Source: Zychaea mexicana (lineage: Eukaryota > Mucoromycota > Mucoromycetes > Mucorales > Lichtheimiaceae). Taken from it: 64,000 nt of DNA. A program made the translations under genes and the position numbers. Positions 28,291 through 46,430 of this stretch are shown one piece after another (the first letter of the stretch is position 1; each line of letters starts with the position of its first letter). The notes beneath the pieces were generated by a model, which was not told where the DNA came from, made no database searches, and saw only the letters and a program-made list of their open reading frames with translations. Location: assembly GCF_025766255.1 (NCBI RefSeq), contig NW_026516685.1:372001-436000 (forward strand), given 5' to 3'.

Positions 28291-29456
28291 GGTTGTTCTT
28301 TATGTTCGCTAAGGGACTGTGTGAGTGTGTGTTGGAAGAAGTGGATAGGTAGAAGAGAAGAGAAGAAGAGAAAAAAGAAAAAGGGATTAAATTGGTTTCG
28401 ATGGTGTTTAAATATAAGGTTTGTGCTCATTGGCAAGCTGTTGGCAGGGCAATCAATCGCCGACTCAAACATGGCTACCGTAAAAGGAAATCAGGATCGC
28501 CGGTTTGTGTGATACGATGCGCAGGCCGGCTATTTTGTGTGGGTAAGGGATTGGTCTCACATCATTCTGTTTCCTAGAAACCAAAATAAGAATAATCCGA
28601 TACATTATCTCTCTGTAGGCCTAGGTCCACAGCAGCGCACATCTGCATGCCCTACTTTGTACTTACTGCTACATGACAGTGCATACGCATCGCTCGCTCG
28701 CTCGACAAGTCAATTGAACACGTGTATTCAGCCACATTCGAGATTAGCTTCCAATCGAAACCTACAAGCCGTTACTCGTGGCCCCTTTCCCCTGTTTCCT
28801 CTCTATCTGTCTAATCTTTTTTCTTGAGTCTATCTAGAAACGCCTCTATATTTTTTATATATTATTCGTTTGTTTACTTTTTAATTTTCGCAGATCAACA
28901 AGCGATGATACATAACAGAAGGATTTCTGCACGCTCTGGCTGCTGCTGCTGCTGTAATATCTTTAGTTTCCACTCCCTGCCCTCTTGTATAAACAGACAT
29001 TGTATGTATGTTTTTGCCTCTCGCTCAATGTTTTAAAAATAGATAAGCGCCACTCTGGCCAGCCCTCTGAAACCAGGATTATATACTGTGTACGTAAGAT
29101 ATCGGGTCTGATAAAAAACAAAGCCAATGATCGATCAATCCCCGCTTCTGCATCCCGTCGGGATGACGAGGGGGGGAGGGGCAAGTGGTAAATAGTGGGG
29201 GTGTGCCGGTGCGGCGAGTTTTTTTTAGTGCTACTTGTTAGAAACCACGCTCATCTTATTATATAAATTGCCTTTTAAGCTCAAAAACATTATTTTTGGT
29301 ATCGTTGTTTTTTTTACAAGAACAACGAAAAGTTAAATATAAATACTACACAAAATAGTGTATATTTACGAAGAAAGGTGCTTGTTGCAATATATTTATT
29401 GCGTATCTTTCTTGTATCATTATCACTACTTTATTATAAATATTATTTTGTTTCAA
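28291..29456. other. Intergenic, no gene seen
   Basis: Upstream of UDP-glucose dehydrogenase and downstream of the LITAF gene. Purine-rich 28320-28390 on the plus strand corresponds to the pyrimidine-rich 5' leader of the dehydrogenase. No other signal. Confidence 0.5.
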
Positions 29457-30831
29457 TCATAGCTTTGAATGTCTCCCGATATTCGTACCACAGGCTGGAC
29501 AATAATGGACCACATCTTGAAAGAAACGGTTGTGAGTATGTGCTGCATATCCCACCTGTTTAAACACCCCATTTATACTTCTTAATGCGGGTATATAATC
29601 CTTTTAACTTCATCATAACCATCAAGGCCTTCCCCGCACCAAGTTGTAGTAGTAGCGAGTAATATGAAGTTTATACCTTTGAAGTATTTTACATAGAATG
29701 GTACCCAGAACAAAAACACCGTGCACATGAATCTATGGATGAACAAAAAATATATTCACGATTGTCTTAGTTAGCATCTGCCCTATCTCTACCCTTCCAT
29801 AACATTAGGATTGATAATGTGCCACGTTCTTCTATGTCGCACCACAACTCTTACAGTATAAATGCTACGAGCCAGGTTAATGCGCCTAGACGATACCGAA
29901 TTCGCGACTGGACCCATTTCTCACAGGTAGGACAAAACACCTGCATTTCAAAGTCCGGTAAAGACTGATCCTCCATCATGGCTCCACGCGCTCGTCGGAT
30001 ACGCCACGAATGTCCAATACTCGGATTGCTTGATCCTTGTCGCACGCGTGGTCGTCTGGAGAAGAACGACGCTCGTCGCTCTCCATCCTGTTGTTCTTGT
30101 TCCTCTTCTTGTTGAAGCTCTCGCCGATGCTTTTGATACATTCTTTGATATCGTCGCTGTCTTTGTTGCTCCTGTTCCTCCTGTCGTTGTTGTTGTTGCT
30201 GGCTGATAAAAGTGTCATGCTGTAAGTGATTAGTGGCAGAATCACCAGAACGGGCGGAATTTAAAGAATGATCATCATTTTCATTAGCATCATTGTTACT
30301 ACTGCTGTTGCGGTGGAGCCTATAGGAAACAGGTGTGCCGATATGATAGTGTTGTAATCGCACAGACATGCCTGACTCGGCGGTCATTGAAGGGGCATTT
30401 CGTGGGGTCATGCCGGAACACGCGGATCTAAAGGAAGCCCTAGTGTTGTCTTGAACAACGTCGTCATCGTCGTCGTCCTGTGACGACGATGAAGTGGATT
30501 GTATGCTGTGTCTTTGTTGTTGTTGTTGTTGTTGGTGGTGACGATCATTGTATGGATGTTGCTGAGGGGTATGTTGTTTAACATATCTATTGTTGTTGAT
30601 GTTGCGACCCCTACTGCTGCTGGCACCATATGTGCCATAAGTATTATCTGCTACTGTTATTGCTAGCCCTCCTGCTGCTGTTTGTCTTTCCTCGGTCGTC
30701 ATGTTTGTATGATGCCCACTGTCTGCACGTTCCCGTTTACTCCGTCGACGTCGGTATTTGTGTACGATCGAAGACACAAGTCGATCTGGAAATAGAAAAC
30801 TCCTTGATCCTCTTGATTGTGTCGCATCCAT
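29457..30831 (-). CDS. LITAF-domain protein with long disordered N-terminus
   Basis: 372 residues from exons 29855-30831, 29677-29732 and 29457-29542. The C-terminal about 85 residues form a LITAF-like zinc-binding membrane domain: first CxxC in VFCPTCEKWVQSR, then a hydrophobic stretch (LGALTWLVAFI / LFMCTVFLFWVPF), then the second knuckle VVHYCPACGTNIG. LITAF domains insert monotopically into endosomal or lysosomal membranes, with the two CxxC knuckles joining one zinc. The N-terminal about 290 residues are low complexity (Gln, Ser, Asn, Arg runs), which is unusual as most LITAF proteins are short with PPxY-type tails. The second intron's acceptor (ATGCAG, 29543) is chosen because it keeps both the frame and the second CxxC; an acceptor 12 nt earlier breaks the frame. 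Confidence 0.88.
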
Positions 30832-41497: not shown

Positions 41498-43860
41498 GCA
41501 AATGCGATCGGGGTTACACATTTTGCCCAATTACAAAAAACACACCGCCATCAACAGACCCCCAAACGCCATAGTAAGAAAAGAACCCCGCCATCATGAG
41601 AAAAAAAGCATCGCCAATCATAAGGAAAAATCCTGTACTTCAAAATCACCATTGACCTTGTATTGGGCATATCTGAGGTCTATTGCCAAACACACAACTC
41701 TTGACCAATGTAATAGATGCTAGTGTATGCGGTGACATTCAGTAGCCGCTACTACCCGCTTACTTATAAAACAATGGGAAACCCTGCGAAAACCTGCGTT
41801 GGTCCCTCTGGTCGAGGGGGAGTGCAAAAAAAATTGTATTGAAGCGGAGCATGTGTCGACTTTTTTTGGAAGCAATCGTAGCAACTATCACATATACGAC
41901 GACAGTATGGGCGAATGTTCTGCTGTTGGCCCGAGAATTAAAAAGAGCAACCATTGTCTCATCCATCCATGCTGCCTGGGGGAAAATACATGCGTGGACG
42001 AGTTATACAACGTATTTTGTACTGGTACGCTGCTATTGTATACATAGAAGACCAGAATTTGAAGTGCAGCAGCCATAGTAGGTGAGATGGCGGATAATGT
42101 GTTTAGGCATGAATATCGTTACGGATGATTTGAGTCCCTGTCAATCTATTTAAAATCAAGGTTCTTGCCATCAATCCTTTCTTTTGTTGTTCGCTAATAA
42201 CAGTAAACACGTCACATCCGCGAGTAAAAGCTGGACTTGCTCCAGATGCTATATTTTTGTCATTTTCTTTTTTTTGTGTAAAAAGTGGGGAACGAATGGG
42301 AAAAGAAACTGATCATTCTTAAAAGAACTTTCAGCTCCCCACTCCTACTTCGAAAAGTAGAAGCACGATGTCAACCCGGCGATAGCTCGAAGGCCCCCGA
42401 CACAGCTGGAATACCACTGCTGGCTTTATTCACCGCATCCAATTCGTTGAGAAATTTTTTTTCGCAGCGAATGGCACAATTTATGGGCAACGTCCGCTAT
42501 TGAAGCGACTTGTGGGTCAATTTTCAAATTTCGCTTGCATCGCTTTAACCCCAATAGAGGCCCTTCCTGTCATGACTATTCGTTGATCTCTACTCAATCC
42601 CTCAACATCTTTATCGTCAATCATCACCCAACTTATCAACCTTCATAAATATAAATGTAATCACTCGACTTGTTCCTTGTTCCTTTCTCATCATCTGGTC
42701 TCCTTGACCTTCCGATATTCTTCTTGCCTTGACCTAGATTCATCTCTCCTCTGTCTTTGGCTTGTCTTGTTTTGTCGTCGCTTCCGGCTCACTTTATGAC
42801 GCATGCCCGTAATACTAATTCAAGTGCCCGTGTATGATCCAGCCTTCGGATAAAGCTCTTCCAAGTGCATGTCAACTGCAAGATTGTGTGAGAAACATTG
42901 AGTCTGTTTGTAAGGGATTCTCTCACTCTGTAACCTTTAACCACCAAGAATAACTTTACCACAATACAAGTCTTTTTTTATTAGTATATGTACAATATCA
43001 AAACTAACAATTACGTTAAACGCACAATCTGAAACCTGGTTGAAAAACTAGGGCACATCGGTGTGCTTCTATGGGTAAATCTATCATAAGCGTTGGCTAT
43101 CCAATTTGTCACTGGGGATTCTGCGAGATCATTGTTCTTCATAGGCAAGAAGTTTTTACCAGACAGCAGTGAGAGGTCGAACCTACGACCGTTTGAGCAT
43201 GCTCAGAAAGGCTACCCGAAATGGTTGCGCTAGCCCTGTTAGTCGATTTTAATTCGCACAGTACCGGTTGCTCGTATGCTGCTGCCGATCTCACCTCGAA
43301 TGCTCATACTGTATCGGCGTGTTTTACGTAGGCATAACTGGAGAATCGGCATTAAGGCAACCGCCAAGCGTTAGAATGCTAGTATGTCTTCCATGAAACG
43401 GAACAGGTAACCTTGGGCATGGCATCATCATACTGTATGATACAACCCCGTTGAATATGAAGCAGTTATTAATGATTCATTCTCTGCCCTAGTTTTCTTT
43501 GGATGCGAGTACCTTTCTTTTCTCTCCCACCCGGCCCCATTTTGTCCTTTTGCAAAATTTGGATGGGCGGAATGGACACTATTAATATTCTCGTATCATA
43601 GAAACCGGAGTCGACCTTATGTTGATTAAGGAAGAACAGCAAAGTACCGTATTTGGTGAATCCCAGCCATAATGATGTATCATATGTGCTGTTATCAAAG
43701 CACCTTTGACAACAGCACCTTCACATAAAAAGAGGTAGCACTGTTAGCTTTTGCTATAATTATCTTGTTCATGATGCTCTTTGCCTTTGCTGATATGCCG
43801 TGGGAGTTGGCCACCTGATTATGCGTTTGCAGGTATTCCCTCGGTTGCGTGCCGTACTTC
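41498..43860. other. Intergenic, about 2.4 kb, no gene recognised
   Basis: Open frames on both strands near 41760-42080 overlap each other and show no motif. A tRNA-like relic may lie at 43164-43240. The rest shows no structure I can name. Confidence 0.45.
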
Positions 43861-43999
43861 ATCTCCATAAACTGGTCCCTCCGCTTCGCTGCGTGTCACA
43901 TTTGTCCTTCAGGAGCGAGTTTACTGGGGCTCTACCCCAGTGTTCCTGAAACAATGCTTCAAATAAGATCTTTCAAAAGTGCTGTGTGTACAATTTTTC

Positions 44000-44495
44000 T
44001 CATATTTTTATTTTTTTTATTTCGTGAAAAGGGTGTGGCAGCAGCTTCCTGGAACGTCGCATATGTTGTGCCCTCATATTGACGCAGGGAAAGAAAGCCA
44101 GTAGGGCCGCGAACAAACAGCAAAAGCAGACGAAGGCAATATTGTGCCATGTTTGGAAGCGAAGCATGGTATATACGCGTGACAACATTTTGGACAGGAG
44201 GGTTGGTTCGAGGGTTCCAACGGCGATTTCTGTTGTTCCAGGTGTAGTAATATTATAATTATTATCAACAATATGTTTATATTTCTTATTTTCTTTATTA
44301 CATATATTATCATATTTATAACATATAAAACACTCTTTTTTGTTGTTTTTAGGATTCCAATCTTTAGGATGATTATAGATACAATTATCATTCCAACATT
44401 TTATGCCATTTAGACATTTTTTCTTAATTATTTCATCATTTCCATGTGCAAATAGGCATTTATCATCCTTGTCACATCCTTTTGGTGAATTATGG
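44000..44495 (-). CDS. Open frame with AT-rich CCCH (Nab2-type) zinc-finger cassette
   Basis: Reading straight on from the Helitron fragment without a stop, the minus strand encodes a Lys/Asn-rich segment with zinc-finger spacing: a partial finger CDKDDKCLFAH, a full C-x5-C-x4-C-x3-H finger in CLNGIKCWNDNCIYNH, and ECFICYKYDNICNKENKKYKH. C-x5-C-x4-C-x3-H is the spacing of Nab2/ZC3H14-type RNA-binding fingers and of zinc fingers in some large DNA viruses. The DNA is visibly far richer in A/T than either flank. Beyond TTPGTTEIA the frame continues in GC-richer sequence with a hydrophobic stretch (IAFVCFCCLFAALLAFFP). No ATG or splice support was found, so expression is unproven. Confidence 0.4.
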
Positions 44496-45165
44496 CGAGG
44501 GATTTCCGAGTTAAGATACTCTTCTATTGCACGATTTTCGCTGTAAAGACGGAAACAGGCAGGAAGCTTGGTGCCGGATTCTGCTGCGTCACGGGCTGCT
44601 CGAACCTCTTGTGGAGTCATATCATCACGGAGATTGACGATCTGTTCGCCTGGCAGATGAAGATCCAGACGCACGACGGTTGGATAGTGCATATGCACAT
44701 CAAACTCGAACGTACGATGGATAGCTTTGCACGGACCAATGTATCGAGCGTTTTGAGACTGCTCTACTTCATTGACCGGCTCGGCAGCGGCATTATCGGT
44801 ATTGGTGGTGGTGGTGGCGGTTGCGGTGGTTTGGATCTGTGCTCGGTCGGTGCCCTTGGTGATGTATTTGCACAAATACTTGATGGCGCGGTTGGATGTG
44901 CAGATTTCAACGTTAATGTGTGCATCGTACTTGTGGCTAAGGTAGGGGTGTGTACGGCACAACATGTCGGTTGTCGGCGAGAAAGTCGGAAGTAGGGAAG
45001 AGGTGGCGGTTTTGGTGATTTTCAAGGCGTCGGTAGATGGGATATCCATCTCGGTTTGACGCGTGTCTCGTTGTTGAATGGCTTTGGATAGCCTTGTGAG
45101 CACCGGTTATCCTTCATGCACACAGCATTGGTGCCTGGACCACATGGGCCGTGTATCATGCATGC
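44490..45165 (-). pseudogene. Helitron Rep/helicase fragment, frameshifted
   Basis: Helitron proteins combine an HUH Rep nuclease and a Pif1-family helicase for rolling-circle transposition. Here only the stretch between those domains survives. Recognisable pieces on the minus strand: CMIHGPCGPGTNAVCM (about 45140-45165), CSQGYPKPF (about 45075-45100), DNRHVVPYT, then after a one-base frame change in a C/G run near 44945, PYLSHKYDAHINVE, IKYLCKYITKG, NARYIGPCKAIHRTFEFD and VHMHYPTVVRLDLHLPGEQ, down to EYLNSEIPRH. At least two frame changes and no start codon make it non-functional as a transposase. The family similarity stops sharply after EIPRH, where the AT-rich segment begins. Confidence 0.8.
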
Positions 45166-46430
45166 TGTCACCGTGCGATACACTGTGGTTGTGTGAGTGG
45201 ATCTAGGTGTAGTAGCAGGAGTAGGAGCTGTAGGATATTCAACGACATTCTACCCGCCATTCCATTTTTTCCACTTAAACAAACTGTAACAGTTAGTTTC
45301 AAATGTGGCCTTAAACATTCATTGCCTATTCTACGGCGAACGTTGCGTGAATGAAGTGGACATGGCCCATTATTGTCATCCGAGCCACAGTGACAGTCTT
45401 GGTTAACTTCAGATTGCTTCAATACAAGGATGAAAAGTTAATTAGTACACTTGAGTCTTTTAAACAGTCTGTCAGAATCTCAGGCAAGAATCTTCGGCAA
45501 GGCTCGAAGATGCTCAATGATTTTCCATGAATAGACCTTTCAAGTGTCGTTTACGGAAGATTGAAGCAGTAACACACCTTTTGCGAACTCATAGTAAAAT
45601 TACAATAGTAGTAGAGAGAAACAACAAAGTTAAAGTGTAAACGTTCCTGAGAAACACGTGTGTGCGGGCAAAAAGATTATATATTGGTGATGCTAATTTC
45701 CAAATATGGACTTACGCTGGGAATGAATCGTAACGACCTCTCTTTCAGAGTAGAGATAGAAGTCGCATCTGTGAAGTATCTAGCGATCTCCATGGTAGTT
45801 CTTAAAAAAAACGGTGGTACCCCGCCCAGTACCTTAAATATTTTGCACGTATTGTTGTCAGTGTCAACCGTATCCTTTTTCCAGAAGCGACTGTGTAGTA
45901 CGTTTAAAATGTGCGACGTTGAATCTGTGCCGATGCTTATAAATTCCGGTGTCGTCTGGCACGAGTAGCATACTATTTAGCTCTATTTTATGCAAGTGAT
46001 ACAAAACGACTCTCTTCCCCCTTCTCTGCTCTTGGCTTAGTACAGTCAAGGCGCTACAAGTTGCTTTTACTGTGTATGTGGAGGTGCTGGAGAGTCCTTC
46101 GCATTGAAAGCTTCGGATCAGGCAATCTTTATCAACTCTGTACACAACTCTCTCGCTGTATTCCAATCGTCTTTCGCTGTACATCAGTCTATCAGTCGCT
46201 GTTCAGCAATCTTTATACTTACTATCCATCTGTTGATTTGGTTTGGATCAGCTGCTTAAAAATGTTGTCTTTTCTGTCCCCCAAGTTTGTATTTCGCGGT
46301 GAGCGGTCTGTGATCTCGACAATAGCTGTGGCGGTGACTCGTTTTTCAACCGCAGCCGCTTTGCTTCCAATGAATCTGGGCTTCTTTTTATTATTTTTCT
46401 GACACTTTTCGTCAAACACTTTGGAGAATA
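45166..46430. other. Intergenic, no gene seen
   Basis: The minus frame at 45168-45422 may be more decayed Helitron sequence but I recognise no motif. The remainder up to RPB12 shows nothing. Confidence 0.45.

Follow-up and report, generated by a model that had tools for sequence, protein, structure and literature searches.

This locus raises the question of how a lysine- and asparagine-rich zinc-finger segment came to lie in the open frame of a Helitron gene, and whether the two together form a new fused protein. The window analysed here is a stretch of 64,000 nucleotides (C135:372001-436000) of an assembly of 50.3 Mb in 305 contigs, whose gene content, as assessed by eye, looks fungus-like. 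The original prediction, made on this stretch, described a long stop-free frame on the minus strand in which Helitron similarity ends after EIPRH and is followed by a Lys/Asn-rich zinc-finger segment and a GC-richer tail, and it explained this arrangement as a gene capture that had kept the fused frame open. The features of the locus are as follows:

42220..45762, minus strand: decayed Helitron-derived element, its limits taken from a second copy on contig C285.
44493..45202, minus strand: frame-broken part of the Rep-helicase gene on the upstream side of the insert, 93.6% identical over 708 bp to the long open copy L007.
44248..44492, minus strand: foreign-looking insert of 245 bp and 22% GC that encodes a portion of a Lys/Asn-rich CCCH-like protein; a single A at its edge can be assigned to either side.
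44039..44247, minus strand: continuation of the Rep gene directly past the insert in a different frame, from all-frame reading and copy comparison.
44000..45106, minus strand: open reading frame of 368 codons, with its stop.

The long frame and its parts are borne out by the sequence. The frame is open over 368 codons from 45106 to 44003, with its stop codon at 44002-44000; its 5' end is at 45106 and not at 45165, and a stop codon lies just upstream. In all-frame reading, the first 53 codons are Helitron DNA outside the Helitron frame, whereas the following ∼151 codons are in the Helitron frame and run to EIPR. The H codon (44494-44492) is a Rep codon split by the insert, and with it begin the 82 codons that span the insert, in which 31 of 82 residues are K or N, together with 8 Cys and 4 His. 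The last 82 codons are indeed GC-richer, but they are ordinary Helitron-element DNA read in the wrong frame, which rules out the tail as a new domain. The Helitron protein itself picks up directly past the insert in a different frame (RWNPRT...RIYHASLPNMAQYCLRLLLLFVRGPTGF). Moreover, the 219-bp tail register is free of stops in 5 of 19 insert-free copies (L005, which is the nearest, L021, L022, L023 and, in two pieces, L006), and contains one or two stops in the remaining 14. Since this register is also open in copies without the insert, its openness in the window is no evidence of selection. The openness of the frame is real, but there is no working fusion: we saw no sign that the 368-codon frame is a gene and infer that it is not in use, and beyond the captured codons it has no demonstrated meaning.

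To place the segment in its genomic context, the genome was searched with the surrounding 1.7 kb. At least 62 matching stretches, including the window's own, were obtained, and 40 of 136 candidates were scored. Among the matches listed, query positions 909-1152 were matched at no place besides the window. The junction comparison comprises 19 other places and leaves aside the more distant Helitron families present in the match list at 66–71% identity. The site is empty in 19/19 of these places (20 locus records, one place being represented twice), and in all 20 records the flanks are contiguous, being one A shorter than the joined flanks of the window. At the target, we found no duplication longer than 1 bp and no loss, and the insert ends carry no terminal direct or inverted repeats. 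Further copies with the same junctions, for which the original prediction had proposed a genome search, were found at none of the 19 other places, so that there is no sign of mobilisation of the segment among the copies examined. At the DNA level, the insert is closely matched at a single place in the genome.

The Helitron copies also bear on the relative age of the insertion and on the state of the element. The nearest copy, on C285, reads EIPRHYTWNNRNRRWNPRT across the insertion point and is 98.6% and 97.6% identical to the window on the two sides of the insert. Because this copy differs by only 38 substitutions in 3279 aligned columns (with 21 gap columns), the insertion is recent relative to the Helitron family. 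L007 is open over 1236 codons, to the edges of its locus, and matches PF14214 (Helitron_like_N, Rep; 1.6e-60) and PF05970 (PIF1; 6.5e-69). It is uninterrupted at the insertion point, as is the other long open copy, L008; in this genome, the segment is therefore not a normal part of intact Helitrons, a possibility that its absence from 19/19 other places examined rules out. The window copy has frame breaks and no complete Rep-helicase, and its RepSA match (16.5 bits) is below the cut-off of 34. Helitrons start with 5' TC, end with 3' CTRR and lie between A and T. The shared 5' edge of the element starts with CTTCTATCTCTACTC, near a TC start, and the shared 3' edge, possibly truncated, shows no CTRR. 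In L007 (C235) and L008 (C104), the Rep-helicase frames are open over >1230 codons to the locus edges, and the Helitron family to which they belong may be active. Finally, we noted on C24 (L036:5362-5432) a stretch of ∼71 bp and 21% GC at another position in another copy of the same Helitron. It has no recognisable content and, in a DNA search, no match elsewhere in the genome; it is possibly a third case of such an insertion.

The composition of the insert sets it apart from its surroundings. Segments of 244 bp taken across the 64-kb window have a mean GC content of 42.6% (s.d. 5.4); only 7 of 6376 are at or below 25.4% GC, and 6 of these 7 overlap the insert. Another AT-rich stretch in the window lies at 29251-29470 (23% GC over 220 bp). 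When the bases of the insert were shuffled, one given frame stayed open over 81 codons in 5 of 20000 cases, which argues that the insert frame was recently coding; this test and the homologues described later in the text show that the frame exceeds chance. That the segment is foreign to the Helitron, as the original prediction had claimed, is supported by its absence elsewhere, by the sharp contrast in composition and by relatives that are not Helitron proteins. The fused frame that it had proposed is not supported, as a Rep codon is split, the Helitron frame is lost and both ends of the open frame are out of the Helitron frame.

A search with the single protein sequence gave no homologues. 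Alignment searches retrieved two proteins when the alignment included a second member from this genome, and seven in all with a wider alignment. These proteins (P0001-P0007) are unnamed and 144–248 residues long; their contigs, which come from the sources lgn and ena, do not exceed 1675 bases, and no taxon is given. We take these sources to be metagenome-type assemblies, and the contigs could derive from fungi or protists that have not been sequenced. The core of the family is C-x5-C-x4-C-x3-H plus a conserved WNP..NK.EC..C. The consensus spacing of CCCH zinc fingers is C-x(5-15)-C-x(4-6)-C-x3-H, and both fingers of P0001 (C-x7-C-x6-C-x3-H and C-x5-C-x4-C-x3-H) fit it. In the insert in the window, the second finger is retained, and the first is cut through and present only in part. 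Among the relatives, P0001-P0004 possess a tail that carries an FP motif, to which P0001-P0003 add YS[DE]V, while P0005-P0007 carry a long N-terminal stretch in place of the first finger.

The family resembles known CCCH fingers (Nab2 type, tandem CCCH) in the Cys/His spacing of the second finger and in weak matches below the cut-offs to Nab2-type, tandem CCCH and Muscleblind fingers. It differs from them in that it scores under the Pfam cut-offs (best CCCH model 15.9 bits, curated cut-off 25.8) and has WNP..NK.EC..C and a third Cys/His group in addition. P0007 has an IBR match of 18.3 bits, also below its cut-off (24.3). NCBIfam and PHROGs scans of five of the seven relatives gave matches at chance level only, and the structure predictions have mean pLDDT values of 38.7 and 38.1. 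Among the papers listed on CCCH proteins in giant viruses and on giant viruses in fungi, titles and abstract openings contain no mention of the family.

The only other clear member of the family found in this genome is on C157 and has one in-frame stop; four protein queries revealed no intact member in the 50-Mb assembly among the best candidates scored. The C157 member is part of the following feature:

L034:4072-5239 (C157:198571-199738): compound filler, consisting of 120 bp of host DNA like that of contig C263 and 1046 bp at 16.7% GC.

The member sits in the 1046-bp island, and the joined 120 bp are 97.5% identical to a locus on C263. Together, the island and the 120 bp take the place of a few bases in a host locus whose relative on C283 is uninterrupted. 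In the island, a piece running in the opposite direction matches P0001 residues 72–134 at 29% identity (E 2e-4 in a single-subject search without composition correction) and may, on this weak similarity, be part of a second family member. Such a patchwork of differing origins is the typical signature of filler DNA captured in end joining. Farther along the same locus (L034:5438-6148), we noted a dispersed AT-rich repeat of ∼700 bp with short palindromes, present on >20 contigs when partial matches are included; two copies face each other ∼6.5 kb apart on C250, and matches occur at ∼9.5-kb spacing on C267.

The insert in the window is not a recent copy of the C157 member, as the two are 74% identical in DNA over 188 bp and have only 43 of 78 core residues in common. 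The window insert shares 45/78 core residues with P0001, a difference from 43/78 that is trivial by itself, and the C157 member shares 50/79 with P0001. Since both genomic members are about as close to P0001 as to each other, neither can have been copied recently from the other. In a gene tree of nine rows, one of six inner branches is well supported and the window row is on a long branch. The comparison of these sequences suggests that two independent uptakes from a single type of AT-rich donor are more likely than recent copying within the genome, although the tree lacks the strength to prove this.

The reading that we favour, with a probability of roughly 75%, is that the insert is a foreign AT-rich fragment used as end-joining filler in a decayed Helitron copy. 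A double-strand break would have occurred inside a Helitron copy that was already decayed and would have been closed by end joining; in the process, 245 bp of very AT-rich foreign DNA that was in the nucleus would have been incorporated as filler. This fragment would be a piece of a gene for a small Lys/Asn-rich CCCH-like protein from an AT-rich genome. While the exact insert, the empty sites, the lack of a target duplication above 1 bp, the frame break, the homology and the second, compound insertion are observed, we infer the break, the end joining and the origin of the DNA outside the host. Nuclear insertions of mitochondrial DNA are an example of such break fillers. The insert has traits of this type of DNA, being absent from close relatives and having neither a long target duplication nor transposon-like termini.

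Helitrons are known to contain such fillers, and a filler-DNA model for them proposes break repair internal to the element, with end junctions of 2–13 bp at the source loci (PMC6544945). Under such a model, the ends of the source fragment should share short homology with the flanks of the break; the source locus of the present insert was found neither in the host-genome nor in the viral-contig searches. As in filler DNA at double-strand breaks (PMC6544945), an unrelated fragment is internal to the element, the junctions are blunt and there is almost no target duplication, and C157 shares with such filler the joining of several fragments. However, the apparent source here is an AT-rich genome and not a known host gene or recognised organelle. 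A comparison can also be made with Helitrons that carry captured gene pieces, such as HELPO1 of Pleurotus, in which, as here, Helitron-derived DNA of a fungus-like genome contains a coding piece of foreign appearance; in the description of that element, the captured genes are downstream of RepHel (PMC4289320), whereas here the Rep gene of a single dead copy is interrupted. The same source suggests that gene capture is rarer in fungal Helitrons than in those of plants and animals (PMC4289320).

Capture by a Helitron with the formation of a new chimeric protein would account for the 368 codons that stay open and would have precedents in fungal Helitrons with captured genes and viral domains, in the account of PMC4289320. 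We nevertheless hold it to be highly improbable: none of the other copies examined has these junctions, and past the insert the open frame is no longer that of the Helitron. The tail can be read without a stop in five of the 19 insert-free copies, the nearest among them, and the element, with its broken frames, lacks a complete Rep-helicase. Nor does a small mobile element carrying a CCCH-like gene fit well. Sharp ends, a discrete insert and the insertion of the same gene family twice in one genome could point to one; however, only a gene piece is present, cut inside the first finger, with one close place in the genome, no terminal repeats, no target duplication above 1 bp and, by eye, no ends common to both inserts, so that we consider this explanation very unlikely.

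It is unlikely, to a lesser degree, that the insert belongs to a native AT-rich host gene family, lost or unassembled, that was copied within the genome and is not foreign. The presence of two members in this genome, the stretches of ∼20% GC in many of the fetched loci and the joining of the C157 filler to a piece of host DNA would agree with such a family. Against it are the failure of the four protein queries to find an intact member among the best candidates scored in the 50-Mb assembly, the composition of the insert, which is unlike that of the 64-kb window, and the fact that both members are about as near to an outside protein as to one another. An assembly artefact, with contaminant DNA joined into the contig, is hardly credible. 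Only one close place exists and no donor was found in the assembly, but both flanks carry on beyond the insert without the loss of a base, and C157 holds another insertion of this family, built as a different patchwork.

The insert looks more like a scar left by the repair of a DNA break than like a new gene. The value of the finding lies in the donor, as a record of foreign DNA; as a fused gene, the locus is unimportant. A dead transposon of which many near-identical copies have the empty site is a good trap, showing what inserted, where and how recently, and two genomic places with the same unannotated AT-rich gene family point to a recurrent DNA donor. With the family signature WNP..NK.EC..C, this donor could be identified among fungal and viral sequences. 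Given that the gene is AT-rich and that large DNA viruses reach the nuclei of fungi, a fungal virus of this type is a plausible source. The source could also be a cellular parasite or symbiont with AT-rich DNA, or a host gene family missing from the assembly. More tentatively, and with considerable doubt, the two fillers may reflect repeated uptake from an undescribed intracellular agent with a multigene Lys/Asn-rich CCCH-like family, in fragments of 17–22% GC. An unknown large DNA virus of fungi would be the most attractive candidate for this agent, and in that case the fillers on C135, in the Helitron, and on C157 would each be the fossil of an infection of its own.

An endogenous large-DNA-virus region of 1.5 Mb is described in Rhizophagus irregularis, in a report from which we take that such viral DNA reaches fungal nuclei (PMC10640383). 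The insert is AT-rich and apparently foreign; it is unlike these endogenous elements in that the two insertions measure only ∼0.25 and 1.05 kb and that no viral marker gene or viral-contig relative was found. Scans for exact short patterns, which such searches need, detected no relative of the family in IMG/VR viral contigs or in 50,697 phage records, and a scan of prokaryote genomes detected none either. Searches of the genome for the capsid and VLTF3 families gave no match, and their 14 controls were likewise without a match. Two weak D5-family matches were obtained, with E values of 0.015 (just over the family cut-off with its neighbours) and 0.023. Both were rejected as viral helicases: the translation of the match on C56 reads as a host RFX-like gene, and the match on C250 is beside four tRNA matches in AT-rich DNA. 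This tRNA-bearing stretch (L062:400-1350, at ∼262 kb of C250) has 22–29% GC, is repeated in part in inverted orientation ∼25 kb away and is probably an insertion of mitochondrial DNA.
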